Shown: positions 2 to 12,328 of the stretch, piece by piece | Position numbering within the stretch: the stretch's first letter is position 1 | Layout of the letters: each line of letters begins with the position of its first letter | Source of the DNA: Synergistaceae bacterium | GTDB lineage: Bacteria > Synergistota > Synergistia > Synergistales > Aminobacteriaceae | Assembly: GCA_017417365.1 (NCBI GenBank) | Contig: JAFPZI010000082.1 | Span: forward strand, 1 to 32,001 | Direction of reading: 5' to 3' | DNA: 32,001 nt | The notes under the pieces: generated by a model | What the model was told of the DNA's origin: nothing | Database searches by the model: none | Seen by the model: the letters and a program-made list of their open reading frames with translations, nothing else | Position numbers and translations under genes: made by a program

Positions 2-115
2 GTTTTTGAGGCAGTGAGCGGGGACTTGTACTTTGTGGAGGTGGAGGCCTCATTGTCTGAACTTTTGGGGCGCGGGGTGTTCTTTCTTCCCGAAGACGAA
101 GAGGAGGATTTGTGA
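2..115 (+). CDS. 3' end of an unidentified CDS (truncated by window edge)
   Basis: An open frame runs from the window edge to a TGA at 113-115 and encodes at least 37 residues with no internal stop. The last residues are very acidic (FLPEDEEEDL). The stop overlaps the ATG of the next gene (TGATG), which indicates translational coupling and makes this a real gene and an operon member. The visible part is too short to assign a family. Its G-rich third positions match the genes that follow. Confidence 0.6.
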   Translation, partial: VFEAVSGDLYFVEVEASLSELLGRGVFFLPEDEEEDL

Positions 116-1080
116 TGCGAAAAGTTTTCGTGATGATTATTCTGCTGATGGTCTGTGCTCAGGCTCAAGGGGTAATGAGGTTTGACGTGCCCACGAAGAA
201 TACTGCGGCAAGTTCGAGGTTTGAGCTTGATGGAGGGTTGATGGTGGAGTTCTGCGGGATTGTGAGGGACCTGAACGCTGCGGGTGATGTTCGTGAATGT
301 GTGTTCAGTCTGTTCATGGTTACTGCGGAGAAGGATACGCGGCTCGATGTGAAGTCTGAGGCGGTGTTCGACAGTTTCGGGAGGAAGTTCCCCGGGCCTG
401 TTGGAGTGTCTATAGCTGGGAACGGAACGCCCTCCGAGATTATTGGGGAAGTTCCGACTCTTGTGTGGTTTGTGCATAGAGTGCCAGTGAGTGTGAGGGA
501 GCTGCCGAAGTTTTCGCGGATGAAGTTCTGGTTCAACGGCAAAGAAGTAGAACTGCGCGGGGAGTCAGTGCAGTTGTGGGAGGAGTGGACTCGTACGGCC
601 GGGACGAGGAATGAGGCACTTGCAGTGTGGTTGGAGGGGAAGCCGGAGCTTCGGGAGATGTATACGTCGATGAGGAACGCGCCGGACTTGAGCAACGTTG
701 CGGAGTTCGGGGGGCACCACTACAAAGCATACTATGAGCGTATTTCGTGGCACGCGGCCAAGAAGAAGTGTGAGGACTTAGGCGGACACTTGGCCACAAT
801 CACGAGCGCGGAGGAAAATGAATTTGTGCTGGGCATTCTGAATCCCGACAGAAACATTCTCTATTGGCTTGGGGGTTCTGATGATGAGACTGAAGGCCAA
901 TGGCAATGGGTAACAGGTGAGGCGTTCACCTTCACCCTGTGGAACTCTGGCGAACCGAACGGAGGGAGGCGTGAAAGTTTTCTGCAGGTAACCACGTTCT
1001 GGAACAACCGTTGGGGCTGGAACGATGCTACACCTGACGAAAATTCATCGAACGCTTACGTGTGCGAGTGGGACTACTAA
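115..1080 (+). CDS. Secreted protein: unnamed small domain fused to a C-type lectin domain
   Basis: The protein is 321 aa. I chose ATG 115 because AGGAGG lies 7 nt upstream; an in-frame GTG at 112 is less well placed. Residues 1-19 form a signal peptide ending AQAQG, followed by VMRF. Residues about 36-160 resemble the domain that makes up the five genes at 1581-4288: LDG near the start, a FMVTAEKD-like segment, an FDSFGRKF segment, SEIIGEVP, and FNGKEVELR. Residues about 198-321 are a C-type lectin domain with Cys219, the WLGG core, an EPN motif at 280-282, WND at 302-304 and Cys317. EPN plus WND is the calcium and mannose-type ligand site in animal lectins of this fold. The inner cysteine pair is absent. 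It is probably exported to the periplasm or surface; sugar binding is inferred. Confidence 0.85.
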   Translation: MRKVFVMIILLMVCAQAQGVMRFDVPTKNTAASSRFELDGGLMVEFCGIVRDLNAAGDVRECVFSLFMVTAEKDTRLDVKSEAVFDSFGRKFPGPVGVSIAGNGTPSEIIGEVPTLVWFVHRVPVSVRELPKFSRMKFWFNGKEVELRGESVQLWEEWTRTAGTRNEALAVWLEGKPELREMYTSMRNAPDLSNVAEFGGHHYKAYYERISWHAAKKKCEDLGGHLATITSAEENEFVLGILNPDRNILYWLGGSDDETEGQWQWVTGEAFTFTLWNSGEPNGGRRESFLQVTTFWNNRWGWNDATPDENSSNAYVCEWDY

Positions 1081-1092
1081 GGAGGAATCTTT

Positions 1093-1581
1093 ATGAGGAA
1101 TAAACTTTTTGCGGTGATTGTTGTCTTGATGGTGGGCGTTCTTGCTCATGGTGCGGTGAGGTCGGAGGCCTCGAACAAAAGGGGAGCTGCCCGCTTCAGG
1201 GGACACCGCTACATGGTGTTCTACGAGAAACTGAGCTGGCACGATGCCGAGACGAAATGTGAGAGTTTAGGGGGGCACTTGGCGACCATCACGAGCCCTG
1301 AGGAGAATAAATTTGTGCTTGGCCTCCTGAACCCCGACGGAAGGTACGTCTATTGGCTCGGAGGTACCGACGAGGAGACCGAAGGCGTGTGGCAGTGGAT
1401 AACCGGCGAGAAGTTCAGCTTCACCCTGTGGAATGCCGGCGAACCCAACGGAGGGAGTTACGAGAATTACCTGGAGCTGTCCACAGTCTGGAGCGGCCGC
1501 TGGAACTGGAACGACACTATAACCGTTTCCGCGAATGCCTACGTGTGTGAGTGGGACTATTTGATTGAGGAGGAATCTTAA
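1093..1581 (+). CDS. Secreted single-domain C-type lectin-like protein
   Basis: The protein is 162 aa, with AGGAGG placed before ATG 1093. A signal peptide (about residues 1-20, ending LAHG-A) is followed by a short linker and one C-type lectin domain (about 37-156). The domain closely matches the C-terminal half of the preceding gene: Cys56, GGHLATITS, YWLGG, WQWITGE, EPN at 117-119, WND at 139-141 and Cys152. It has only the outer disulfide pair. The EPN/WND pair predicts calcium-dependent binding of mannose-type sugars, which is an inference from animal lectins. The stop overlaps the next start (TAATG). It arose by duplication of the neighbouring lectin half, or the neighbour arose by fusion of such a protein to the unnamed domain. 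Confidence 0.85.
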   Translation: MRNKLFAVIVVLMVGVLAHGAVRSEASNKRGAARFRGHRYMVFYEKLSWHDAETKCESLGGHLATITSPEENKFVLGLLNPDGRYVYWLGGTDEETEGVWQWITGEKFSFTLWNAGEPNGGSYENYLELSTVWSGRWNWNDTITVSANAYVCEWDYLIEEES

Positions 1582-2144
1582 TGCTGAGGAAAATTCTTGC
1601 AGTTGCGTTATTGTTTGGGTTAATCGGGAGTGCAGAGGCCGTAATGATCTTCAGGTCTCAGGAGGAGGGCGGAACTTCATCCGTTAGTCTGCCTGCCTAT
1701 GACAACCCAATGGAGTCCAACGTTGACGAGGGAAGGTTACACGTGAGCTTCAAGGGTATCTTCAGGATTACTGACGGCTACGTGTATGCGTGTTTTGTTG
1801 CGACCCCTGACGAGGACATGGAGATGAATATAGACTGGGACGGGAGCAGGATATTCGACAGTCAGGGGACAATCTTTGAGCTGAGGGACCCTAGCTACTG
1901 GATAGGGAAGAGTCCCGTGAGCCATCGCGAAATAGTGCGTGGAATCCCAATGCCAGTCCTTGTGGGTACTTCGCTCACGACTGAGGAGGCCGGGCAGTTC
2001 CCGATAATAGCGCGTATACGCTTCAAGTGCATGGGGACACAGTTAGAGTTCAGGAACATCAAGGTACGTGATTGGCCGGAGTGGGAGAAGATTCGGGACT
2101 CACTTGGTTTGGCCGTAGCACCGATTGAGCGTCAGGAGCCGTGA
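1581..2144 (+). CDS. Secreted paralogous-family protein, copy 1 (unknown function)
   Basis: The protein is 187 aa with a signal peptide ending GSAEA, followed by VMIF. The mature part carries the family landmarks shared by five consecutive genes: LPAYDNPxE, LHVSFKGIFR, a FVATPDEDM segment, an FDSQG turn, WIG...REIVRGIP, a FPIIARIRF strand and EFRNIKV near the C-terminus. The pattern of alternating hydrophobic strands suggests a beta-sandwich, but I do not recognise a named family. It overlaps the lectin gene before it by one base, and the next gene's ATG overlaps its TGA, so it is translationally coupled on both sides. Export is well supported by the signal peptide; whether it is cargo, adhesin or periplasmic is unknown. 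Confidence 0.8.
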   Translation: MLRKILAVALLFGLIGSAEAVMIFRSQEEGGTSSVSLPAYDNPMESNVDEGRLHVSFKGIFRITDGYVYACFVATPDEDMEMNIDWDGSRIFDSQGTIFELRDPSYWIGKSPVSHREIVRGIPMPVLVGTSLTTEEAGQFPIIARIRFKCMGTQLEFRNIKVRDWPEWEKIRDSLGLAVAPIERQEP

Positions 2145-2695
2145 TGAGCAGGATATTTGCGTTAGTTCTTGTGTGGGCGGTGCTGTGTGGGAGTGCTCAG
2201 GGAGTTATGATATTTTCCCCGTCGGAGCCGCCTCAAGTTCCGGCCAAGACATCGAGGGCTGTGCAGAATGACCCGAGATTGCCGGCGTATGACAACCCGA
2301 TAGAGTCTGACTTAGCGGGAGGGGAATTTCACGTGAGTTTTCTCGCGGTGTCTAAGAAAGATATGGTGCTCAGGGTTGAGAAGGACAATGATATATTTGA
2401 CGGCAGAGGCAGAAAATATCACTGTCCTGATGGGGAACCTCTTCGGGGCAGCGATGGTGCGGATTATGCAGTTTTCACGAATATTGGTAGTGAAGAGACG
2501 CATGACCGTGAAATCATTGCGGGAATCATGACACCCATCGAGTTCCAATTCTTGATGGACCCTGTTTCAGGCGGCACTCTCCCGACAATAGGGCGCGCAC
2601 GTTTCTGCTTCAACGGCGAATGGCTGGAGTTCAGGAACCTCAAAGTCCAAGACTCTTCCCTGTGGAAGGAAATCCGCACCGAACTCGGACTCTGA
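2144..2695 (+). CDS. Secreted paralogous-family protein, copy 2 (unknown function)
   Basis: The protein is 183 aa from ATG 2144, which overlaps the preceding TGA; an in-frame GTG at 2141 would add one residue. A signal peptide ending GSAQG is followed by VMIF. Family landmarks are present: LPAYDNPIESDL, FHVSF, a KKDMVLRV segment, FDGRGRKY, REIIAGI, LPTIGRARFCFNGEW and EFRNLKV. Compared with copies 4 and 5, it has lost about 20 residues between HVSF and the KKDM segment and gained an insert after FDGRGRKY. Its coding strand changes from G-rich to C-rich third positions near base 2560, inside the gene. No named family is recognised. Confidence 0.78.
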   Translation: MSRIFALVLVWAVLCGSAQGVMIFSPSEPPQVPAKTSRAVQNDPRLPAYDNPIESDLAGGEFHVSFLAVSKKDMVLRVEKDNDIFDGRGRKYHCPDGEPLRGSDGADYAVFTNIGSEETHDREIIAGIMTPIEFQFLMDPVSGGTLPTIGRARFCFNGEWLEFRNLKVQDSSLWKEIRTELGL

Positions 2696-2714
2696 GCGCG
2701 AAAGGAGAATCGCA

Positions 2715-3104
2715 ATGACCAGAAAAATTATTATCCTGACAACTATACTCATAGCATCCCTGACCCTATCGCCAGCACAGGCCCGCGACATCCCGTCAGA
2801 CCCATCACTGCCCGCCTGCAACACCCCAATAGAGGCCGACGAAATGCACGACAGCAAGGGCACAAAGTACAGTGAATGGCTCAACACTTGGATAGGCGGA
2901 GAGAATACGGAGAGGCGCGAAATCATTGCGTCAGTGCCGGTGAGGATTATGAAGTGGCTTAGAGTCCCCGTCTCGAAAGCAGGTGAATACCCAACGATTG
3001 CCCGGGTAACCTTCACGTTCAACGACAAACGCTGTCAGTACCGTAACATCAAGGTAGAGGACCGGGACGTTTGGGAAGGCCTCCGAGACCGTGAGGACCT
3101 TTAG
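2715..3104 (+). CDS. Secreted paralogous-family protein, copy 3, internally shortened
   Basis: The protein is 129 aa with AAGGAG upstream of ATG 2715. It has a signal peptide ending SPAQA. The family start (LPACNTPIEAD) passes almost directly into the HDSKGTKY turn, so about 45 residues that hold the LHISFKGVFR and FVATPQNDM strands in copies 4 and 5 are missing. The rest is intact: WIGGENTERREII, YPTIARVTFTFND and QYRNIKVED. The reading frame is preserved, so the gene may still make a short protein, but it could be a decaying copy. Its start region (ATGACCAGAAAA) matches the starts of the next two genes, which points to recent duplication. Confidence 0.72.
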   Translation: MTRKIIILTTILIASLTLSPAQARDIPSDPSLPACNTPIEADEMHDSKGTKYSEWLNTWIGGENTERREIIASVPVRIMKWLRVPVSKAGEYPTIARVTFTFNDKRCQYRNIKVEDRDVWEGLRDREDL

Positions 3105-3119
3105 GAAGGAGAATAATCT

Positions 3120-3680
3120 ATGACCAGAAAACTTTTTGTGATTGCGTTGTTATTCGTGATGATAGCCAGTGTACCAGCGTCGGGAGTTATGGTATTCGGC
3201 AACCCCGAACCCGAACCCGCCCCAAACTCCCCGAGAGTCATCCCCAGCGACCCGAAATTACCCCCCTACGATAACCCTGCGGAGATTGACCTCGACGGCC
3301 CACTACACATCAGCTTCAAGGGAGTCTTCAGGGGTGTGGGCAACAATATGGACCTTATCTGCTTTATATTCGTCGCACTTCCTCAGAATGATATGCGCCT
3401 TCGTCTCGACAGAAGGGACGCTTACGACGGCAAGGGCAGGAAGCTCAACAACTGGCAGAATGTATGGATAGGTGATGAGCGAACAACTGACCGCGAGATT
3501 ATTGGCTATATACCTATAGTTATTTCGAGATGGCTGAAAGTTCCCGCCTCAACTTACGGAGAACTCCCCACGATAGCCCGCGCAGAATTTTGCTTCAACG
3601 GCAAATGGTTTCAGTTCCGCAACATCAAGACCGAAGAATGGTCGGTGTGGCAGGGCATAGCACAAGAATTAGGCCTCTAG
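3120..3680 (+). CDS. Secreted paralogous-family protein, copy 4 (unknown function)
   Basis: The protein is 186 aa, with GAAGGAG before ATG 3120. A signal peptide ending VPASG is followed by VMVFG. It is one of the two most complete family members: a Pro-rich linker, LPPYDNPAEIDLDGPLHI, FKGVFR, FIFVALPQNDMRL, YDGKGRKL, WIGDERTTDREIIGYIP, LPTIARAEFCFNGKW and QFRNIK. The linker probably sets the folded domain away from its N-terminal attachment or cleavage site. It is closest to copy 5 in sequence and in C-rich codon use. No enzyme motif or metal site is visible. The function is unknown; its position between the lectins and the CsgG-family module suggests an exported or surface role. Confidence 0.8.
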   Translation: MTRKLFVIALLFVMIASVPASGVMVFGNPEPEPAPNSPRVIPSDPKLPPYDNPAEIDLDGPLHISFKGVFRGVGNNMDLICFIFVALPQNDMRLRLDRRDAYDGKGRKLNNWQNVWIGDERTTDREIIGYIPIVISRWLKVPASTYGELPTIARAEFCFNGKWFQFRNIKTEEWSVWQGIAQELGL

Positions 3681-3694
3681 GGAGGAGAAGCACA

Positions 3695-4288
3695 ATGACC
3701 AGAAAACTTTTCGTCTTCACTCTGATACTCGTAATGCTCACCTCAAGTTCAGCGTTGGGCGTAATGAGAATCGACACCAGCAGGGGAATCCCAAGAGGCT
3801 CCCTCAACCCTTCACGCACCCTCCCGAGCGACCCCAGACTCCCAGAGTACGACAACCCCACAGAACTCGACCTCGACGGACCTCTACACATCAGCTTCAA
3901 GGGCGTATTCCGTCAGCTCAACGAACAGAAGCAGCCCACAGACTATATAGCGTTCGTGTTCGTTGCGACCCCTCAGAATGATATGCGGCTCGGAGTCGAC
4001 CGCTCAGAACTCTACGACGGCAGCGGCACAAGATTCAACCCCGACGAAATATGGATCGGCCGTGAGCGCACTTCTGAACGCGAAATCATCGGCGGAATCC
4101 CAATGCGAATCTGCGTGTGGTTCAGAGTCCCGCCGGAAGAGTCCGACATCCTCCCAACAGTCGCACGCGTCAACATCACCTTCAACGGCAAGTCTTCCCA
4201 ATACCGCAACATAGTTACTGAGGACGCGTCAATCTGGGAAGGCCTCGCGGAAGAATTGCGCCTCAACAAAAGTCTATTGAGGCCCTAA
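3695..4288 (+). CDS. Secreted paralogous-family protein, copy 5 (unknown function)
   Basis: The protein is 197 aa. I chose ATG 3695 because GGAGGAG lies upstream and a signal peptide (ending SSALG, then VMRI) begins there; the open frame extends back to 3530 but only overlaps the preceding gene. Family landmarks are complete: LPEYDNPTELDLDGPLHI, FKGVFR, FVFVATPQNDMRL, YDGSGTRF, WIGRERTSEREIIGGIP, LPTVARVNITFNGK and QYRNIVTED. It is the last copy in the array. Its third positions are strongly C-rich, unlike copy 1. No catalytic motif is seen. It probably has the same role as copy 4, with sequence divergence mainly in the linker and tail. Confidence 0.8.
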   Translation: MTRKLFVFTLILVMLTSSSALGVMRIDTSRGIPRGSLNPSRTLPSDPRLPEYDNPTELDLDGPLHISFKGVFRQLNEQKQPTDYIAFVFVATPQNDMRLGVDRSELYDGSGTRFNPDEIWIGRERTSEREIIGGIPMRICVWFRVPPEESDILPTVARVNITFNGKSSQYRNIVTEDASIWEGLAEELRLNKSLLRP

Positions 4289-4301
4289 ACTTTGTGCACC
4301 A

Positions 4302-4335
4302 TGCCGGAAAATTCTCAACCTCCGGCAAATCTTTA
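4302..4335 (+). terminator. Weak hairpin between the paralogue array and the LPP20-like gene
   Basis: TGCCGG (4302-4307) pairs with CCGGCA (4322-4327) around a 14-nt loop and is followed by a short, interrupted T-run. It may reduce transcription into the downstream module or protect the 3' end of the array transcript. The stem is only 6 bp, so it is a weak call. Confidence 0.35.
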
Positions 4336-4351
4336 TACAGGAGTGATATTC

Positions 4352-5704
4352 ATGAAGTGTTCTAGTATTTCCCTCAAAGCCTCAACCGTTTTACTGCTCT
4401 TGGCCATGTGCGGAGCCTCGTTCGCAATCAGTGCCGACGACTTCATCCCGCCGGTTCAGGAGGACTCCGCAGCCCGTCGCGCCGAACTCCTCACCGTCAG
4501 CAACGAATCCGCCGTCCACGTCTCACGCAGCGCAAGCCTTGACGCAGAGATCACCGCTGCCCCAACCCTTCAGGACGCAATCAACGCAATCATCGCCAAA
4601 CCCAAACAGGGCTGCCAGTTCGCAGGAGTTACGGGTTACGCTGCCTCAACAATCGTAGCAACAGGCATGGGCACCTACAACCCCAATTACGAAAACGTCA
4701 TGGCCTCACGAATTGAGCAGAGGAACGCCTACGTTGTTGCCTTCATGAGGGCGAAAAGCGAAATGTCCCGCACCTTGTCGGGAATCACAATCGAGGGAGC
4801 GACCTACTTCGAGCAGGACAGCCAGTCAGAGACCACGAGCGCAAAGACCCTCAACAACTTAAGCATGTCCCTCACCGAACGCCTTCACCAGTGGGCGCAG
4901 GCAGTTCTTAGGGGCTACGTTACCTACGCAGTTCAGGACGACGGCAAAGGCAGGGTTTACGTTACCCTAGTGAGTTCCCCGAAGACACGCGGCCAAGTCA
5001 GAAGGGTCAGCGACGGAATAACTGCCACAGACTTACGCAGCGGACTCAACGCGGTTATTGCCGAGATTAAGTCGGGGTTAGTCCCCCCCGTCGGCGGCAG
5101 AATCATCGAGGTACCCGGCACCGGCGAAATTGCTTGGGTAGGTTTCGGCAGCTCAGTAGTCAGGCACGACAACGAACCCGACGTTCAGGCGGAACTTGAG
5201 CTTCAGGCCGAACAGATTGCGGAACTCAGAGCCATTGACGGTCTCGCTGGAATAATCTTAGGCGACACCACACGCTGGGAGGCACACGCAGACGAGTCCA
5301 CGAAGCGTATGATTCAGTCGTTCGAGACCCTGCAGCGTGAGGACCCCACAAGAGGCACTGAGCAGGAGATCCGCGAACTTGAGTCCAGAAGGCGGGAAAT
5401 GCGTAACAGCCTCTCAAGCAGTGAGACAGTCAGCAGCCTACGAAGAGGGACTCTCCCTCCCGGAATTACCCCACAGACCGACATTGACCCAGACGGCTAT
5501 TTTGCCTACGGTATCGCGGTCTACCTCCCCTCAGCGAGCGACAGGGCAGCAGAGGCAAAGCGTGAGATGGACACAACGAGAATAGTCCGTCCCGTCAAGC
5601 CCGCGACTCCCGCCCCAAACGCACCGGCTCCCCAGACCGTCAAGCCCGGCCAGAAGCTAGAGATTAAGAGAGGCCCTTCCGGTGTGGTCGAACAGAGTTT
5701 GTAG
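4352..5704 (+). CDS. Exported protein with two LPP20-like domains
   Basis: The protein is 450 aa. ATG 4352 is preferred: AGGAG precedes it and a signal peptide (ending ASFA) starts there; an upstream in-frame TTG at 4292 would add 20 residues without a signal. Residues about 85-215 hold a GMGTYNPN...A..EQRNAYV.AF..AKSE pattern, and residues about 265-335 hold a second GFGSS...AELELQAEQIAELRA.DGLAG pattern. Both resemble the LPP20/FlgT-N type fold (a G-x-G strand followed by an Ala-rich helix), from memory of the family. A Pro-rich, basic C-terminal tail follows. LPP20-type proteins commonly occur beside CsgG-like outer-membrane components, as here. It overlaps the next gene by 23 bp. Confidence 0.7.
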   Translation: MKCSSISLKASTVLLLLAMCGASFAISADDFIPPVQEDSAARRAELLTVSNESAVHVSRSASLDAEITAAPTLQDAINAIIAKPKQGCQFAGVTGYAASTIVATGMGTYNPNYENVMASRIEQRNAYVVAFMRAKSEMSRTLSGITIEGATYFEQDSQSETTSAKTLNNLSMSLTERLHQWAQAVLRGYVTYAVQDDGKGRVYVTLVSSPKTRGQVRRVSDGITATDLRSGLNAVIAEIKSGLVPPVGGRIIEVPGTGEIAWVGFGSSVVRHDNEPDVQAELELQAEQIAELRAIDGLAGIILGDTTRWEAHADESTKRMIQSFETLQREDPTRGTEQEIRELESRRREMRNSLSSSETVSSLRRGTLPPGITPQTDIDPDGYFAYGIAVYLPSASDRAAEAKREMDTTRIVRPVKPATPAPNAPAPQTVKPGQKLEIKRGPSGVVEQSL

Positions 5705-6572
5705 CGCGTTAATCTGTGTCCTGATTCTCACAGCGTCTCCAGTTTCCGCCAACGGACTTCAGGACGCAGTAAGCTCATTCATCGGGGGAGTTCACTCACT
5801 GCCCGAAGGACTCAGCACGAAGCTCGCCAAGAACCTCGTGAAGACTTCCGGCAGCGTTACGGTCTCAACGGTCAGCGACTCTGGGAACGTTTACGGCCTC
5901 GCAGTTCTCGCGCGAGTTCACGACTCGGAGTCCGACGTTTCCGCAGAACTCGACATAATCACTCAGAACCGGGCGGTCTCCGAAGCGTCATTAAGGCTGG
6001 CGTTTTTCGTGGGACAGGGGGGCGTTGACCGTAAGCTCTTCAGGTATGACGATGCTTTGGGTACGGCCCTGCTCACTCACTACCAGTCGGAGATTCACGC
6101 TCAAGGCTTGAGGGGGCTCCAGACTGTATCAGGAGTGCAGGGTGAATACGTTCTTGGCCTTGCGTGGCTGGACTCACGGACCGCCGGGACTCTCTCGGAC
6201 AACGTCCCAAAGCGCGGGACTCTCGACGACGAATATTGCCGCTTCCTCTACAGGAATCACGCATTGACTCTCTTCGAGGCCGGGAAATTCCGCGAGGCAC
6301 TGCCGGTCTTCAGGAACATTCACGAGTTCAGGTGGTCGGACGTTGATGCGTACCTTGACGCTTCAGAATGCTTCTTACGGACGGCCCAGCCCAAAGAGTG
6401 CGTGAAGTTATTGCGTGAACTCCGTGCAGAACTCGACGCTAAGATGTCCAGCAGGCAGCTTCACAGGGCAGGAAAGTTATTCCGTGAGGCAGGGGACAAA
6501 CAATCAGCGGCTCAGGCACTCAGGGACGCCCGCAAACGTCTTCACGAGGAACAGAGAAAGGGGAGGTATTAA
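5682..6572 (+). CDS. Exported TPR-like protein of the CsgG module
   Basis: The protein is 296 aa from GTG 5682, inside the end of the preceding gene; AGAGAGG lies upstream and a signal peptide (ending SPVSA) follows. Residues about 25-160 have a strand-rich stretch with a GSVTVSTVSD segment, possibly another divergent LPP20/CsgG-like domain. Residues about 185-290 look like helical tetratricopeptide-type repeats (for example YRNHALTLFEAGKFREALPVF and ECFLRTAQPKECVKLLREL). TPR segments usually mediate protein-protein contact, which suggests an assembly or scaffold role in the periplasm. It is followed without a gap by the next gene. The TPR call comes from helix pattern only. Confidence 0.65.
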   Translation: MWSNRVCSALICVLILTASPVSANGLQDAVSSFIGGVHSLPEGLSTKLAKNLVKTSGSVTVSTVSDSGNVYGLAVLARVHDSESDVSAELDIITQNRAVSEASLRLAFFVGQGGVDRKLFRYDDALGTALLTHYQSEIHAQGLRGLQTVSGVQGEYVLGLAWLDSRTAGTLSDNVPKRGTLDDEYCRFLYRNHALTLFEAGKFREALPVFRNIHEFRWSDVDAYLDASECFLRTAQPKECVKLLRELRAELDAKMSSRQLHRAGKLFREAGDKQSAAQALRDARKRLHEEQRKGRY

Positions 6573-7169
6573 TTGCTGAGAAGGTTTGTGTGTATCATTA
6601 TCATTCTGTCAGTCTTCACCGGCACGTCAGAATCTGCAATGCTCAGGAGGGGCAAGCTCTCACCCGGAGGAGGCTCCAGCAACGGCTACGACTCTCAGGG
6701 AGCAATGCCGAGAAGGATTCTCCCTAAGCACGGGGACATAGGCGTAATCGTCGAGGCTCCCGACTACATGCACCAGAGCGCAGCAGAAGCTATGATTATC
6801 CGTGAGCTTGTGAATCACGGTTACAGAGTCGTTGATGAACAGAAGATGAAGCGTATGAAGATGGCGGCGGCAAAAGCTCAGGCGGCACGTTACGCTTTCG
6901 AGGGCAACATAGCGGCACTCCTCAAGGTCAACGGACACTACAGCGCGGCGGCCACAATAGTTGCTCGTGTGAGGGCAAGCTACCCCGTGCGCAACCCTAT
7001 GGGGTCATTGACGGCAACAGCTACGGTAACACTTTTGGCGGTAACTTCCCGCGCAACCAAGCTCGGAGGAGACGTGGCGCAGGGAAAATCCATAGGCTAC
7101 ACAGCAGAAGAGGCCATGCAGAACGCGATCAACAACGCGGTTGAACAGGCACTCTCACAAATATTCTAA
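6573..7169 (+). CDS. Small exported protein of the CsgG module, FlgT-middle-like
   Basis: The protein is 198 aa and begins at TTG 6573, directly after the previous TAA, with GGGGAGG 8 nt upstream. A signal peptide (ending TSESA) is followed by MLRRG and a Gly/Ser linker. The body has a GVIVEAPDYMHQSAAEAMI strand-helix, a GYRVVDEQKMK segment and a C-terminal AEEAMQNAINNAVEQAL helix. This alternation resembles the middle domain of FlgT and related CsgG-fold proteins that sense or bind at the outer membrane; the resemblance is by eye. It is probably a periplasmic partner of the adjoining CsgG-family lipoprotein. Confidence 0.6.
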   Translation: MLRRFVCIIIILSVFTGTSESAMLRRGKLSPGGGSSNGYDSQGAMPRRILPKHGDIGVIVEAPDYMHQSAAEAMIIRELVNHGYRVVDEQKMKRMKMAAAKAQAARYAFEGNIAALLKVNGHYSAAATIVARVRASYPVRNPMGSLTATATVTLLAVTSRATKLGGDVAQGKSIGYTAEEAMQNAINNAVEQALSQIF

Positions 7170-7181
7170 GGAGGAATTGCA

Positions 7182-8624
7182 ATGCGTAAAGTTATCTCGG
7201 TGTTAGTTCTTGCGGTAATGCTCCTGTCTCTGGCTTCATGTGCGGGAGCTAATGATGTGGTGCGTTTGGGAGTTATGAGCTTCGCAAACAGGGCTAACGG
7301 GCTCTCAAACGTTCAGGTTGACGGCATAATGGATGTGTTCGTCCGTGTGCTGGCCAATTCGGATTCTCTTGCAGTGATTGAGCGGGACCGTCTAGGAGCA
7401 ATTGCCCGTGAACACAACTTGAGCATGTCGGGAGTAGTTGACCCAAACATGGCAGTATCCGTAGGACGTTTGGCGGGCTGTGAATACGTACTTCTTGGAG
7501 CAGTAACCAGGTTCAACAAGAGCACGAAAGCTTCAGGGTTCGGCGGACTGTTTGCGCAGGTGAATACTGACGTAGAAGTTACGATAGACGTTAGGGTCCT
7601 CGACACCAAGACCGGCGAAGTAGTGCTGTCAGTCTCCGAGACCGGCCGGGCGAGCAAGAAGGCATCTGCTGTGAGTATCGGTGGAGTGAAGCAGGCTGAA
7701 GACTCCGCCGGTGGGCTTGAGGACGATGCTATACAGGACGCGGTAACGAAACTTGGCCAAAGGGTGCTAGAGGCCACAGTGGGTGAGTATATGCAGGTCC
7801 TAAGCGGGGGCAGCAGTGAAATCACCCTAAGCGTCGGGGCAGTTGCAGGAGCTCACAACGGGAGCATGTACCGGGTTTACGCGGAGGGCAGTGAAGTTCT
7901 TGACATGAGGGGAAGGGTCATAGGCCGCAAGACTAAGACTATAGCAATCGTTCAGGTTACGGAAGTGCAAAACGAGTTCAGCATGGCCCGAGTGATTAAG
8001 AACGGCGGCAATCCCTCACTAATTCGGCGCGGGGACAAGATAAGCCCGATTTCCCCGAGTGAAGCTCAGTCCCTCATCAAGAAGAAGGAGATAGCTACTT
8101 CACGGCCTATGGCGAGCTCGCTTGAGGGTGGCGGAGATGTTGACAGCCGGTTAAGTGACATTGCAGGGGGCCAGACCTACGAGCCGTCAGCACCAGAACC
8201 AGAACCGGACCCGAGCTATTCCCGGTCAGTCGGAGCGTCATCGTTCGGGGATCGTCCTGCGGGGCTCGAGGACAGCTCAACGAACCCCGAGCGAGTTATC
8301 CCGACGTACAGTCTTGCTGAGGGCGAGAAGAGATCAAGAATAACCCTTCACAAGAACCTTCAGAGGGCGGGCAAGACCCGTAATGCCTACAACCGTTACG
8401 CAGAGATGTACAGGACGTATTCAGGGGACTACTTGGCGGCGTATCAGGCAGGAATGATTGCGCAGGCTCTGGGAATGAGGAGCGAGGCGGCGCAGTGGTT
8501 TGACCGTGCGTTGGCTGCGAACCCGAACTATGTTCCGGCACAGGACGCGAAGACCAGTCTTGAGTCGGGTCGTTCTGGAGGGAGGGCTCCTGCGTCGACT
8601 CGTAGGACCAAGAAGCGCAGGTAG
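7182..8624 (+). CDS. CsgG-family outer-membrane lipoprotein with C-terminal TPR
   Basis: The protein is 480 aa with AAGGAGG before ATG 7182. Residues 1-20 are a lipoprotein signal with lipobox LASC (lipidated Cys20). Residues about 27-210 match the CsgG fold: VVRLGVMSFANR, VIERDRLGAIAREH, GRLAGCEYVLLGAVTRF, then VTIDVRVLDTKTGEVVLS. In CsgG, the segment after such a GAVTRF strand and the later SxxETG region carry the membrane-inserting hairpins of a curli-type secretion pore. Here those segments are Gly/Ser-rich and may or may not insert. Residues about 385-465 look like TPR helices, and the tail is basic. CsgG family members also include non-pore lipoproteins, so the export role is inferred. 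It is the last gene before a strong terminator. Confidence 0.8.
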   Translation: MRKVISVLVLAVMLLSLASCAGANDVVRLGVMSFANRANGLSNVQVDGIMDVFVRVLANSDSLAVIERDRLGAIAREHNLSMSGVVDPNMAVSVGRLAGCEYVLLGAVTRFNKSTKASGFGGLFAQVNTDVEVTIDVRVLDTKTGEVVLSVSETGRASKKASAVSIGGVKQAEDSAGGLEDDAIQDAVTKLGQRVLEATVGEYMQVLSGGSSEITLSVGAVAGAHNGSMYRVYAEGSEVLDMRGRVIGRKTKTIAIVQVTEVQNEFSMARVIKNGGNPSLIRRGDKISPISPSEAQSLIKKKEIATSRPMASSLEGGGDVDSRLSDIAGGQTYEPSAPEPEPDPSYSRSVGASSFGDRPAGLEDSSTNPERVIPTYSLAEGEKRSRITLHKNLQRAGKTRNAYNRYAEMYRTYSGDYLAAYQAGMIAQALGMRSEAAQWFDRALAANPNYVPAQDAKTSLESGRSGGRAPASTRRTKKRR

Positions 8625-8658: not shown

Positions 8659-8697
8659 CCGGCAGTGATTCGAGAGGGTCATTGCCGGAAATTTTTT
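8659..8697 (+). terminator. Rho-independent terminator of the lectin/CsgG operon
   Basis: CCGGCAGTGA (8659-8668) pairs with TCATTGCCGG (8679-8688) with one G-T pair, a 10-nt loop and a run of six T at 8692-8697. It ends the + strand operon and also lies just past the stop of the - strand yoeB-like gene, so it could serve both. Confidence 0.85.
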
Positions 8698-8702
8698 GTC
8701 CC

Positions 8703-8969
8703 TCAGTGGTCGCCGTAGTGGCCTCCGCACTCAGTTATAGCTACTCGTTCGCTGTCGACGCTGAACACAAGTCTGTGCTTCTTGTCGATTCTGACGCTGG
8801 CTAACCCTGATAAATCATTGCTCAATCTCTCGGGCTTGCCGTACGAACACAAGTACCCGTTGCGCTGAATGTCCTTAATCAGCATGTTCACTCGCTTCAA
8901 TAAAGGCTTCTGTGTCTGTATCTCCAGATAGTCTTCCCAAGCTCCAGCTTCCCAAAATATTCCGCGCAT
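8703..8969 (-). CDS. yoeB: YoeB/Txe-family mRNA interferase toxin
   Basis: The protein is 88 aa from ATG 8969; a GTG at 8978 that overlaps the antitoxin stop would add three residues. It has the full YoeB pattern: W..DY, KR.N.LI.DI.RN, YGKPERL, LSG..S.RID..HRLVF and a C-terminal HYGDH. The catalytic set of YoeB is visible as Glu47, Arg60, His84 and Tyr85. Family members cut mRNA at the ribosomal A site. It sits directly after a RelB/DinJ-like antitoxin gene, forming an antitoxin-first operon. The partner is unusual because YoeB normally pairs with a YefM/Phd-type antitoxin. It probably belongs to a stress or plasmid-style stabilisation module. Confidence 0.9.
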   Translation of the reverse strand: MRGIFWEAGAWEDYLEIQTQKPLLKRVNMLIKDIQRNGYLCSYGKPERLSNDLSGLASVRIDKKHRLVFSVDSERVAITECGGHYGDH

Positions 8970-8974
8970 TGTTC

Positions 8975-9253
8975 TCACTCGTCATTCTCTGTCGTGTAAG
9001 GTTTTTTCTGCATGGCCTGATAACTTTTCCAGCGGCGCAGAATTTCCGCTGCCTCTCTTGGTGTGAATCCGTTGACGTCCAGCGAAGAGATCCGCACTTC
9101 CTGTTTCCTGACAGCTTGGCTCATCAGTGCACTAATCACCGTCGCCACAGGCAGCCCAATATCCTCGCACAGCTGCGCAAACTGCTTCTTCATTTTCGCA
9201 TCAATCGTGATGGTCAATTTTGCCTTCTCTGAATCCTTGACTGCTTTGCTCAT
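8975..9253 (-). CDS. RelB/DinJ-family antitoxin
   Basis: The protein is 92 aa. ATG 9253 follows an exceptionally good ribosome-binding site (GGGAGGTGAT). The N-terminal half (KLTITIDAKMKKQFAQLC and following helices) fits the ribbon-helix-helix DNA-binding fold of RelB/DinJ; the C-terminal half (DVNGFTPREAAEILRRW) is the toxin-wrapping segment. It should neutralise the YoeB-like toxin encoded next and repress their shared promoter, as is known for the family. A TATAAT-like -10 lies at 9279-9284 on this strand, 25 nt before the start, without a good -35. Confidence 0.85.
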   Translation of the reverse strand: MSKAVKDSEKAKLTITIDAKMKKQFAQLCEDIGLPVATVISALMSQAVRKQEVRISSLDVNGFTPREAAEILRRWKSYQAMQKKPYTTENDE

Positions 9254-9278
9254 GAATTATCACCTCCCTTCCCTCTGA

Positions 9279-9284
9279 ATTATA
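9279..9284 (-). promoter_or_regulatory. Candidate -10 box for the relB/yoeB-like pair
   Basis: TATAAT on the - strand lies 25 nt before the antitoxin ATG and just after a terminator T-run. No good -35 is seen at 16-18 nt, and the spacer overlaps the terminator stem. If used, this gives the pair its own short leader. Confidence 0.4.
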
Positions 9285-9291
9285 CGTCCGC

Positions 9292-9330
9292 AAAAAAGCG
9301 GAGCCCCCTCACTCACGAGAAAACTCCGCT
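9292..9330 (-). terminator. Terminator 1 of the duplicated toxin units
   Basis: On the - strand, AGCGGAG and CTCCGCT arms (9324-9330 and 9297-9303) form a perfect 7-bp stem followed by six T. The 70 bases 9292-9361 are identical to 9930-9999. It ends the proximal Gp49-type toxin unit. Confidence 0.85.
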
Positions 9331-9336
9331 CAATTC

Positions 9337-9549
9337 CTACACCGCAGCTACGGCCTCTTCAGCTTCGCCCGGTATCTCGTCAAGGTCATAAATCTCCATG
9401 CCCATATGAATCTCATTCAAGGCATCCATAGCCACACACACAGCATGAGCAATACGAGTGCACTTCTCAACTACAGCTGCTCCCTCCGGCCCTTGAGACC
9501 TCACGTACTCTTCGTATTCGTCCCAAGTATTTACGTCCTTAAGTTCCAT
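9337..9549 (-). CDS. HTH-less HigA-like partner of a Gp49-type toxin, copy A
   Basis: The protein is 70 aa, with its ATG overlapping the toxin stop (TAATG). The N-terminus (WDEYEEYVRSQGPEG) matches the linker that precedes the helix-turn-helix in HigA-type antitoxins that accompany Gp49 toxins. The expected HTH (a LSQRELA...SSVARIE type sequence) is absent. Instead a helix (ALNEIHMGMEIYDLDE) leads into an acidic tail ending EEAVAAV. It is most likely an antitoxin that binds the basic toxin but cannot bind DNA, so autoregulation would be lost. The same architecture occurs in copy B, which argues against random decay of one copy. Confidence 0.65.
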   Translation of the reverse strand: MELKDVNTWDEYEEYVRSQGPEGAAVVEKCTRIAHAVCVAMDALNEIHMGMEIYDLDEIPGEAEEAVAAV

Positions 9550-9911
9550 TACTGTTTAGACCTCCTCACGTATTCATCACGTTCTGCTTTGGCCCGCTCT
9601 ATTTCACGTCTGGGAGTCTTGTCCGTCTTCTTGCGGAAATGGTGAAGCAGAACAAACATATCATCAATATAGCAAAAGTATAGCACTCTATTATGTCCCG
9701 GCCTGAGCTCCCAAATATCCTCGTCAATATGCTTAGTGATATTCGCAGGCAGGTTAGTGCCATGTTCCATGAGCAGGTTTATCTGAGAGAAAATTTGCTC
9801 ATACTGAATACGTGCATCCTTGTTGTTGCCTGACCTTATCCGCAGAGAGTCTATAAAGTCTAACAGCTCGCTTTTACCCTTCTCGTCCTTGTAGAAATCA
9901 ATCCTGTACAC
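9549..9911 (-). CDS. Gp49/HigB-like toxin (RelE superfamily), copy A
   Basis: The protein is 120 aa from GTG 9911. It matches the phage-derived Gp49-like (DUF891) family along its length: YRIDFYKDEKGKSELLDFI, DARIQYEQIFSQINLLMEHG, HIDEDIWELRPGHNRVLYF, VLLHHFRKKTDKTP and a basic C-terminal helix with REIERAKAERDEY. Members are RelE-fold mRNA interferases, usually encoded before their antitoxin, as here. The start lies only 17 nt after the T-run of the upstream terminator, and no promoter is evident in that space. It is a diverged tandem copy of the gene at 10190-10555. Confidence 0.85.
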   Translation of the reverse strand: MYRIDFYKDEKGKSELLDFIDSLRIRSGNNKDARIQYEQIFSQINLLMEHGTNLPANITKHIDEDIWELRPGHNRVLYFCYIDDMFVLLHHFRKKTDKTPRREIERAKAERDEYVRRSKQ

Positions 9912-9928
9912 TCACGCTTCACCCCCAC

Positions 9929-9968
9929 AAAAAAAGCGGAGCCCCCTCACTCACGAGAAAACTCCGCT
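9929..9968 (-). terminator. Terminator 2 of the duplicated toxin units
   Basis: The same AGCGGAG/CTCCGCT stem as terminator 1 (arms 9962-9968 and 9935-9941), followed on the - strand by seven T. It ends the distal toxin unit and lies just before the GTG of toxin copy A. Confidence 0.85.
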
Positions 9969-9974
9969 CAATTC

Positions 9975-10193
9975 CTACACCGCAGCTACGGCCTCTTCAA
10001 CCTCTTCTGCTTCTTCTTCTTCGTCCAAGTTATACAGCTCAAGCCCCATCCCCATTTCGTTCAGGCTGTCGGAAGCAAAGACTATTGCCTTCACTATGCT
10101 GTCCAGCCTCTCCATTTCGGCCCGTGCCTCTGGACTCGTCGACTTAGCATACTCCTCGAAATCGTCCCAAGTCTGTATGTCCTCATACCTCAT
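9975..10193 (-). CDS. HTH-less HigA-like partner of a Gp49-type toxin, copy B
   Basis: The protein is 72 aa, with ATG overlapping the toxin stop (ATGA). WDDFEEYAKSTSPEA matches the conserved pre-HTH linker of HigA-type antitoxins. A helix containing DSLNEMGMGLELYNLDE follows, then a strongly acidic tail (EEEEAEEVEEAVAAV). No helix-turn-helix is encoded before the stop, and the terminator follows at once. It shares the layout of copy A but differs through much of the N-terminal part, so both copies have been kept while diverging. It probably neutralises the adjacent toxin by direct binding. Confidence 0.65.
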   Translation of the reverse strand: MRYEDIQTWDDFEEYAKSTSPEARAEMERLDSIVKAIVFASDSLNEMGMGLELYNLDEEEEAEEVEEAVAAV

Positions 10194-10555
10194 TGATTCT
10201 TATGCCTCCTCACATAATCATCACGTTCTGCTTTGGCCCGCTCTATTTCCTGACGGGGAGTCTTGTCAGTCTTCTTGCGGAAATAATGCAGCAACACAAA
10301 CATATCATCAAGCCAGCAGAAATACAATATTCTATTCTTGCCCGGCCTGAGCTCCCAAATATCTTCGTCGATATGCTTAGTATATTTTGCTGGAAGGCTT
10401 GTCCCCTTCTCACGAAGAAGTCCTATCTGTGAATAGATTTTATCATACTGTATCCGGGCATCCTTATTCGTTCCGGATGAGAGCAGAAGTCCCCTGATAA
10501 AGTCCATCAGCTCGCTTTTACCGTTCTCGTCCGTGTAGAAATCAATCCTGTACAC
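10190..10555 (-). CDS. Gp49/HigB-like toxin (RelE superfamily), copy B
   Basis: The protein is 121 aa from GTG 10555. It has the Gp49-like signature: YRIDFYTDENGKSELMDFI, DARIQYDKIYSQIGLL, HIDEDIWELRPGKNRILYF, FVLLHYFRKKTDKTP and EIERAKAERDDYVRR. Expected activity is ribosome-dependent mRNA cleavage. It begins 16 nt downstream of the terminator that closes the ompM transcription unit. Without an evident promoter of its own, expression may depend on read-through from ompM or on a promoter hidden in the terminator. It is clearly paralogous to copy A. Confidence 0.85.
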   Translation of the reverse strand: MYRIDFYTDENGKSELMDFIRGLLLSSGTNKDARIQYDKIYSQIGLLREKGTSLPAKYTKHIDEDIWELRPGKNRILYFCWLDDMFVLLHYFRKKTDKTPRQEIERAKAERDDYVRRHKNQ

Positions 10556-10729: not shown

Positions 10730-12328
10730 CTAGAACGTTACCTTCGTCCTGAACCTTACTACGTTATCCTGATCAGCCAATCCAGCACTACGTACGCTAT
10801 CAGGTACATCGTTCTTCACGTGGATGTAGTTCAGACCCATCGTTGTGCTGTCGTTCAGCTGGTACTGAATACCTGCACCAAACTCTGAAGGCTTCACGTC
10901 GTCAGCTCCGCCCCAGCCCTCAACCTTGTAGCCGTAGTAGAACAGGTGCGTCGCGAACTTATCCGTCCACTGCTGGCCAAGTCCAACTCTCCAGTACTTC
11001 GTGTCGTTAGCTACTGCACTACCGCCGAACGTATCCTGGTTGAATGAGCTGTAGAACAACATACCGCCGTTCATTCCTACGAAGCCCTCATCAAACTGGC
11101 CGTACTCGAGCCATACGCTGGTGAACTTCAGGAGCTCCTGCTTCAGATGAAGGATGACTGCCCAGTGGTTCGCGTCGTCCTTGTCGTCAACATCGTACCA
11201 GTGAGGATAGCCCGCTGTGTCGTAGCCGATGTACTCGGAGTTGGTCTTCTGGTGGTAGAAGATTCCCTTGAAGCTGATTGCCTCGTTGAAGTCGAAGCGA
11301 AGGCCCGCGAAAATCGTCCACATGCTGTTGTCTGCGGCACCGTGCCACCTGTTGTCGTCAGTGCTGAAGTACTTGTAGTCAGCGTTGTCGCCGATGAATG
11401 CCTGGCCGCCGATGTCAAACCCGAACTGCTCCGTGAACTGGAACGAACCGCGTGCTAACACCATCCAGTCCTTCGTTGTCCACTTGTTGGGGTGCGCAAC
11501 TGCTACATTGACTACGCCCATTCCGAAGTCCTTCGTGAGGCCTAAGCCGTCCCAAGTCCAGTCGGTAAGGATCTGGTCTCCGTCCCAGCCGCCGGTCATC
11601 GGAAGATCAATCTTGTATGCGCCTTCCCATGCCCAGTTCCAACGACCTACTGTGAGCGTGGTATCCATGAAGAACGGCATATCAACATAGAACCTGTCGA
11701 AGTATGCACCGTTTACGCGGTCGCCGTCAGAGTTTACGCGCGTTGTATTCTCATTACGAAGTCTTGCGCGGAAGAATGCTGTCCTGTCGTTGCCCTCTTC
11801 GTCGGTAACACCCGCGCTGAACGTGCGCTCGAAGAACAGTCTGGCCTCATCGAATGTGATTGAACCGTCGCCGTCACGCCCGAATGCGTCGCCTGCACCG
11901 TTTCCGCTCTGGTTCATAACATCGAGTACCAACGTTCCGTGAATGTGCCAGCCGCCGAGCCTGTCCTCAAGGACCCTGACTCTCTCGTCAAGCTCATCAA
12001 CGCGGACTCCCAGTGCCTCAAGCTCGTCCTTGAACTCAACAACGAGTCTCTTCAGCATCTCTACGTCCTGCTTGCTGGCCTTCGTCATGTCAACAACTGC
12101 GAGTGCTCTGGCAAGTGCTGAAGCCATCTCGTAACGCGTCGTCTGCTGCTGGCCCTTGTACGTACCATCAGGGAATCCTGACAGAATGCCGTGTGCCGCT
12201 AACTGGCCGATTGCATCATATGCCCAGTGATTCATCGGAACGTCCATAAACGGGTTGGTTGCCGAGAATGCCGGGGCCGAAAGTGCTGCTACTGCTACTA
12301 CAGCTAATACTAATGCTAATTTCTTCAT
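10730..12328 (-). CDS. SLH-domain outer-membrane porin, OmpM-like
   Basis: The protein is 532 aa. Signal peptide about 1-22 (ending PAFSA), then one SLH domain (about 26-82, with FMDVPMNHWAYDAIGQL and GFPDGTYKG). A predicted coiled coil (about 85-128, DELEALGVRVDELDERVRVL) is followed by a beta-barrel rich in aromatic strands ending in KVTF with terminal Phe. In Negativicutes and Synergistota such proteins tether the outer membrane to peptidoglycan through the SLH domain and act as abundant porins. GGGGG lies before the ATG. The gene has a long untranslated leader and a strong terminator, as expected for a highly expressed envelope protein. Barrel strand count was not determined. Confidence 0.92.
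   Translation of the reverse strand: MKKLALVLAVVAVAALSAPAFSATNPFMDVPMNHWAYDAIGQLAAHGILSGFPDGTYKGQQQTTRYEMASALARALAVVDMTKASKQDVEMLKRLVVEFKDELEALGVRVDELDERVRVLEDRLGGWHIHGTLVLDVMNQSGNGAGDAFGRDGDGSITFDEARLFFERTFSAGVTDEEGNDRTAFFRARLRNENTTRVNSDGDRVNGAYFDRFYVDMPFFMDTTLTVGRWNWAWEGAYKIDLPMTGGWDGDQILTDWTWDGLGLTKDFGMGVVNVAVAHPNKWTTKDWMVLARGSFQFTEQFGFDIGGQAFIGDNADYKYFSTDDNRWHGAADNSMWTIFAGLRFDFNEAISFKGIFYHQKTNSEYIGYDTAGYPHWYDVDDKDDANHWAVILHLKQELLKFTSVWLEYGQFDEGFVGMNGGMLFYSSFNQDTFGGSAVANDTKYWRVGLGQQWTDKFATHLFYYGYKVEGWGGADDVKPSEFGAGIQYQLNDSTTMGLNYIHVKNDVPDSVRSAGLADQDNVVRFRTKVTF

Follow-up and report, generated by a model that had tools for sequence, protein, structure and literature searches.

A putatively composite cell-envelope operon of Synergistaceae combining CsgG/FlgT/FlgP-type, C-type lectin and lpp-tpr genes

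The curli exporter CsgG (PDB 4uv2, 4uv3, 6si7) and the holdfast anchor HfaB resemble the locus described here in the CsgG domain and in its position at the end of a surface-protein operon, and a lipobox can be read in the window copy; it differs from them in its extra FlgT_C-like and TPR domains and in the presence of several CsgG paralogues per genome. The flagellar FlgO/FlgP/FlgT rings (H-ring of Vibrio, basal disk of Campylobacter) have LPP20/FlgP-like, FlgT_N-like and FlgT_C-like domains in common with the locus, but the set in the window does not lie beside flagellar genes and a CsgG-type subunit has been added. FlgP, Lpp20 and FlgT have a common SHS2-like fold, which serves outer-membrane-associated rings and carries an insertion in the ring-forming members (PMC12222027); the solved lipoprotein 9hmf is an entry cited in the same Campylobacter motor paper. 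The C-type lectins DC-SIGN and the mannose receptor share a Lectin_C domain with EPN and WND motifs with the products of lec1 and lec2, whereas the latter are bacterial, have two of the usual four cysteines and, in the case of lec1, are fused to a second domain, named par below. No publication on the modules described here was found in literature searches.

The window, i.e., the whole stretch of DNA that was analysed (32,001 nucleotides), is the entire contig C245 from the genome (G000) of an uncultured Synergistaceae bacterium of the rumen. The list of open reading frames places 11 genes on the + strand at 112(115)-8624, with neighbours overlapping or separated by no more than 63 bp, and a hydrophobic signal peptide was read by eye at the start of each. 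An intrinsic terminator at 8659-8688 (annotated as 8659-8696; + strand, 13-bp stem, z=-5.9) closes the operon; the only other + strand candidate was a weak 5-bp stem at 1538. Both the eleven-gene set with signal peptides and the single closing terminator proposed in the first-pass annotation were thus confirmed. Of the extent that it gave, 115-8624, the genes stood but the operon start did not, because a further contig from this genome, C253, shares an overlap with the beginning of the window, identical at 356 of 366 bases, and contributes three upstream genes, so that the operon extends beyond the window. The 97% identity in this overlap (L141) suggests that the assembly mixes strains. The extended order, read from C253 and the window, is u547, u393, u157, lec1, lec2, par1-par5, lpp, tpr, flgt, csgg. 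The order is identical in a second species (G005), which carries three lectin, four par and two csgg genes; as it is kept at about 60% protein identity, the gene set is not a product of chance, and the earlier description of a real conserved operon was borne out. The relatives used for comparison are Synergistaceae, a family that includes Fretibacterium fastidiosum (G048); most are uncultured, and many come from goat and deer rumen.

Five genes, u547, u393, u157, flgt and csgg, termed module A, encode LPP20/FlgP-like, FlgT_N-like, FlgP-like, FlgT-like and CsgG+FlgT_C+TPR proteins, respectively. The gene for the small secreted FlgP/LPP20-like protein u157 reaches the window with its 3′ end (1-114, + strand); the remainder lies on C253, and the start of lec1 follows. 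The profile of the u157/u547 type matched 9hmf at 5.7e-14 and FlgP (8z5n) at 0.015, and u393 matched FlgT_N at 1.4e-5. The product of flgt (6573-7169, + strand) has a FlgT/CsgG-type periplasmic domain, on which Pfam returned CsgG alone, at 0.027, so that the previous label "FlgT-middle-like" holds only loosely. The CsgG-family label given to csgg (7182-8624, + strand) held up, with a Pfam match to the CsgG domain PF03783 at E=3.2e-25, and its profile matched the structures of CsgG (4uv2, 1.7e-6) and FlgT (3w1e, 0.0018); a FlgT_C-like domain and TPR are also present. The alignment to CsgG covers the stretch of the first hairpin, the second hairpin lying beyond it, and the lipobox read in the window copy (LASC) is not a constant feature of the aligned CsgG sequences. 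The HfaB model reached 17.5 of 300 bits on csgg, far below its cut-off, a scan of the genome contigs with csgg found no relative, and no Pfam or NCBIfam match to a curlin-type subunit, CsgE or CsgF was generated by the ten operon proteins scanned (par3 left out). Weak similarity of csgg to LpoB (E=1.4e-4, just under the cut-off) raises the alternative that these are LpoB-like periplasmic regulators of peptidoglycan synthesis that form no channel. We regard this as the least credible explanation, given the far better CsgG score, the additional FlgT_C and TPR domains, and the recurrent proximity to genes for secreted proteins and secretion ATPases.

CsgG-like matches, some of them partial, were present in 75 of 101 genomes, and most other relatives carry the order u547-u393/m480-(u157)-flgt-(short csgg)-csgg without lectin or par genes. 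The FlgP, FlgT_N and FlgT_C-like domains, together with FliF in the window genome, would suit an accessory ring of the flagellum, similar to the H-ring or the basal disk, in which the lectins would then have no part. No flagellar gene adjoins the set, however, and CsgG-type matches were found without FliF in four genomes (G043, G048, G086, G093) and FliF without CsgG-type matches in others (G060, G061, G067-G070, G078). In view of this double dissociation the flagellar explanation was rejected as very improbable, and module A, though it resembles flagellar outer-membrane ring proteins, has a distribution that does not depend on flagella.

The par genes, lpp and tpr are referred to as module B. 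Its conserved core protein is encoded by lpp (4352-5704, + strand), and the constant partner of lpp, tpr (5682-6572, + strand), encodes a secreted protein with TPR-like repeats at the C-terminus, whose earlier TPR-like label agrees with a weak Pfam TPR match. The label "LPP20-like" of lpp finds some weak similarity on its side, but the window copy generated no Pfam match, one of 20 relatives matched Pfam LPP20 (at 0.032), and the comparison with 9hmf gave 0.033. Because the hhalign comparison with an LPP20/FlgP-like profile fell from 55% with 11 rows to 5% with a broader set, and that with the FlgT_N profile gave 12%, the label is weakly supported and is kept as tentative. The structure model of lpp was poor (pLDDT 54.5) and generated nothing significant in Foldseek; the best matches, to Tip-alpha (E=0.2), were discarded as evidence given the poor model. 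Homologues of lpp were fetched from Synergistaceae, Planctomycetota, Desulfobulbus, Desulfovibrio, one betaproteobacterial bin and, among the Gammaproteobacteria, Halochromatium, Contendobacter and Competibacteraceae. In Synergistaceae tpr adjoins lpp in 22 of 23 loci, the remaining locus stopping at a contig edge; outside the family it does so in nearly all loci, with FlgT_N-like neighbours in most. From its distribution, lpp-tpr is a widespread unnamed pair, also present in Planctomycetota and Proteobacteria, and the unnamed envelope module par-lpp-tpr gives a handle on this pair, spread over several phyla. In two other genera (L124, 12588-17183; L125, 13021-17556), par-lpp-tpr adjoins a TPR protein and a TPR-CHAT protein of about 1.5 kaa (CHAT 3.5e-47); in L125, a segment resembling a signal peptide was read close to the start of the latter. 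The genes of 1511-1531 aa beside par-lpp in G045 and G050, considered as EssC, proved to encode TPR-CHAT proteins.

Upstream of lpp lie the lectin and par genes, all on the + strand. Both lec1 (112(115)-1080) and lec2 (1093-1581) encode C-type lectins with a signal peptide, a Lectin_C domain (Pfam, E=3.8e-16 and 1.9e-17) and EPN and WND motifs, the motifs being absent from two of the three lectins of G005. The par genes (par1, 1581-2144; par2, 2141-2695; par4, 3120-3680; par5, 3695-4288) encode secreted paralogues; par3 (2715-3104) is shorter, the central strands being absent from it in the alignment. Among the conserved residues are E117, R145 and W168 of par1. As one N-terminal beta-sandwich domain (par) is common to lectin and paralogue proteins, they constitute one family; the domain is N-terminal in lec1 and in each of the three G005 lectins and is missing from lec2. 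The par domain was modelled with high confidence in lec1 (residues 31-180, > 80 in every block of ten) and is predicted to be a beta-sandwich, and we assign no named fold beyond that. In Foldseek, the par half of the lec1 model generated weak matches to Ig-like and GH123 structures only and no close solved relative, and the other half matched lectins. The lectin-fused par domains of both species formed one clade, in which lec1 of the window pairs with a G005 lectin. By Lectin_C, this genus stands alone among 39 genera; the domain occurs in 22 of 101 genomes, elsewhere mostly on large proteins. In G046 (L146, 8735-9895), a par domain precedes what reads by eye as two PDZ-like repeats. As it is fused to a lectin in one case and to PDZ-like repeats, a different cargo, in the other, the par domain seems to behave as an interchangeable carrier domain.

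Of the 23 lpp loci in Synergistaceae, 11, covering eight genera, have a par gene no more than 3 kb from lpp (the window, G005, G046, G048, G045, G050, G052, G110, G116, G120, L173), and five, covering three lineages, have CsgG no more than 7 kb from it (the window, G005, G023, G110, L178). The chance probabilities of these linkages, 1e-16 and 5e-4, are rough, with guessed background rates and relatedness ignored. In G023 the order is u547-u393-u157-lpp-tpr-flgt-csgg, and lectin and par genes are absent. Because of this arrangement, and as most relatives have the ring genes without lectin or par, the operon is judged from gene order to be composite, with module B inserted into module A between u157 and flgt. 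The linkage of CsgG and lpp recurs in two further lineages, L178 and G110, the latter of another genus than the window. Lectin or par genes adjoin CsgG in two of 101 genomes (G000 and G005), and one par gene lies near CsgG in G110, outside the 101-genome set; the link between lectins and CsgG is thus rare and confined to one genus. The coupling of lectins and paralogues to CsgG proposed in the first-pass annotation was therefore upheld in part, for par beside lpp and for the recurrent CsgG+lpp linkage, but not for lectin or par beside CsgG. As for conservation, the full set was kept in G005, but module A stands alone in most relatives. That the CsgG set might be found mostly alone, an outcome which the first-pass annotation named as speaking against its proposal, is half the case, at 75 genomes with CsgG-like matches against two with lectin or par beside CsgG.

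We propose, with a probability of roughly 45%, that the locus is a composite cell-envelope operon that exports or anchors the par and lectin proteins via a CsgG/FlgT/FlgP-type ring. Module A would build a stack of rings, FlgP/FlgT-type ones lying beneath CsgG-type subunits that sit at or in the outer membrane, and module B would be an additional envelope module, of wider distribution, that was inserted into it. The par and par-lectin proteins would reach the periplasm via Sec and dock through the common par domain on a scaffold of lpp, tpr and ring, and the ring would either release them or retain them on the cell surface; there, the C-type lectin domains may attach to glycans of the host or of plants in a calcium-dependent manner. 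We infer from this that the products could act in adhesion and glycan capture, a possible route by which a rumen bacterium comes to carry lectins of animal type on its surface. That the genes share an operon is no proof that their products touch, and the occurrence of lectin or par beside CsgG in only two genomes speaks against composite export, as do the poor lpp model with its weak LPP20 relationship, the variable lipobox and the two G005 lectins that lack EPN and WND. It is rather doubtful, but the next explanation to weigh, that the genes are merely co-transcribed, the ring set having its own job and the lectin and par proteins being independent secreted or periplasmic proteins. Most relatives do carry module A without lectin or par, and many par genes lie apart from both the CsgG and lpp modules (L133-L140; G017, G022, G027, G016, G038 and others). 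Simple co-transcription is at odds with a par-lpp-tpr linkage that spans eight genera, with the renewed meeting of modules A and B in G110 and L178, and with a layout kept between species at about 60% protein identity.

The strongest support for module A as an exit is located outside the window, in a sister module linked to type VII secretion. EssC orthologues (> 500 bits) were found in 16 of 101 genomes, two of which (G008 and G019) were excluded from the count as the contig ends at essC. In all 14 readable loci, which come from three genera, the EssC operon is immediately preceded on its own strand by FlgT-like and/or CsgG genes, across a gap of up to about 4 kb. Typically the order is m480-flgt-short csgg-csgg-essC-yukD-WXG100 genes; G010 and G011 have only m480 and flgt upstream of essC, and some contigs end before the WXG100 genes. 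The sister module thus shares an operon with the T7SSb components EssC, YukD and WXG100 in the genus of the window and two others; we know of no CsgG/FlgT-type part in a described T7SS. Pfam matches in G027 were 6e-12 for WXG100 and 3e-7 for YukD. The three genera have an outer membrane, and BamA was present in 58 of 61 genomes. T7SSb-like operons follow FlgT-like and CsgG genes in L059 (5430-14983; C242 of the window genome) and L058 (9126-19830), and further such loci are L023, L047, L051, L052, L057, L062, L063, L181-L184 and L187. The contig of L059 also encodes a papain-family protease with C-type lectin and Lectin_like domains (1-2010).

As this paralogous A module abuts the type VII operon in every readable locus, an exit role of the ring fits, and the sister module is, by its gene neighbourhood, a candidate outer-membrane exit of a diderm type VII system. 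A wider version, about which we are more tentative than about the composite operon, is a portable CsgG/FlgT/FlgP-type outer-membrane exit that has been plugged both onto Sec-exported lectin and par proteins and onto a type VII machine; if true, a shared exit gate would explain type VII secretion across a true outer membrane. WXG100 genes have been described beside FtsK/SpoIIIE-family genes in some Gram-negatives, unconfirmed as secretion systems (PMC10765036). In L178 (213-7954), m480-flgt-csgg-lpp-tpr is followed by a 927-aa FtsK/SpoIIIE-domain protein, a possible translocation ATPase, which PADLOC matched to ATPase models; the six window proteins scanned generated no PADLOC match. The ring set of the window might also serve the type VII system in trans, with the lectin and par proteins as surface accessories of that machine. 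The arrangement in L178 is consistent with this, as is the window genome, in which C242 carries EssC, YukD and a sister A module, and C189 a second EssC piece adjoined by WXG100-like genes. We nevertheless consider service in trans unlikely: the type VII operon already has its own A module, the window operon contains no EssC or WXG100 gene, and G023, a genome that is only 64% complete, combines module A with lpp-tpr and yielded no full EssC.

Downstream of the operon, the - strand of the window carries at 8703-10555 a YoeB-like toxin gene adjoining a likely antitoxin gene, followed by a Gp49/HigB-like gene that is present twice, with a small partner gene beside each copy; these are likely tandem toxin-antitoxin pairs. 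At 10730-12328, on the same strand, lies a gene whose product has an SLH domain at its N-terminus and is likely to serve as an outer-envelope anchor.
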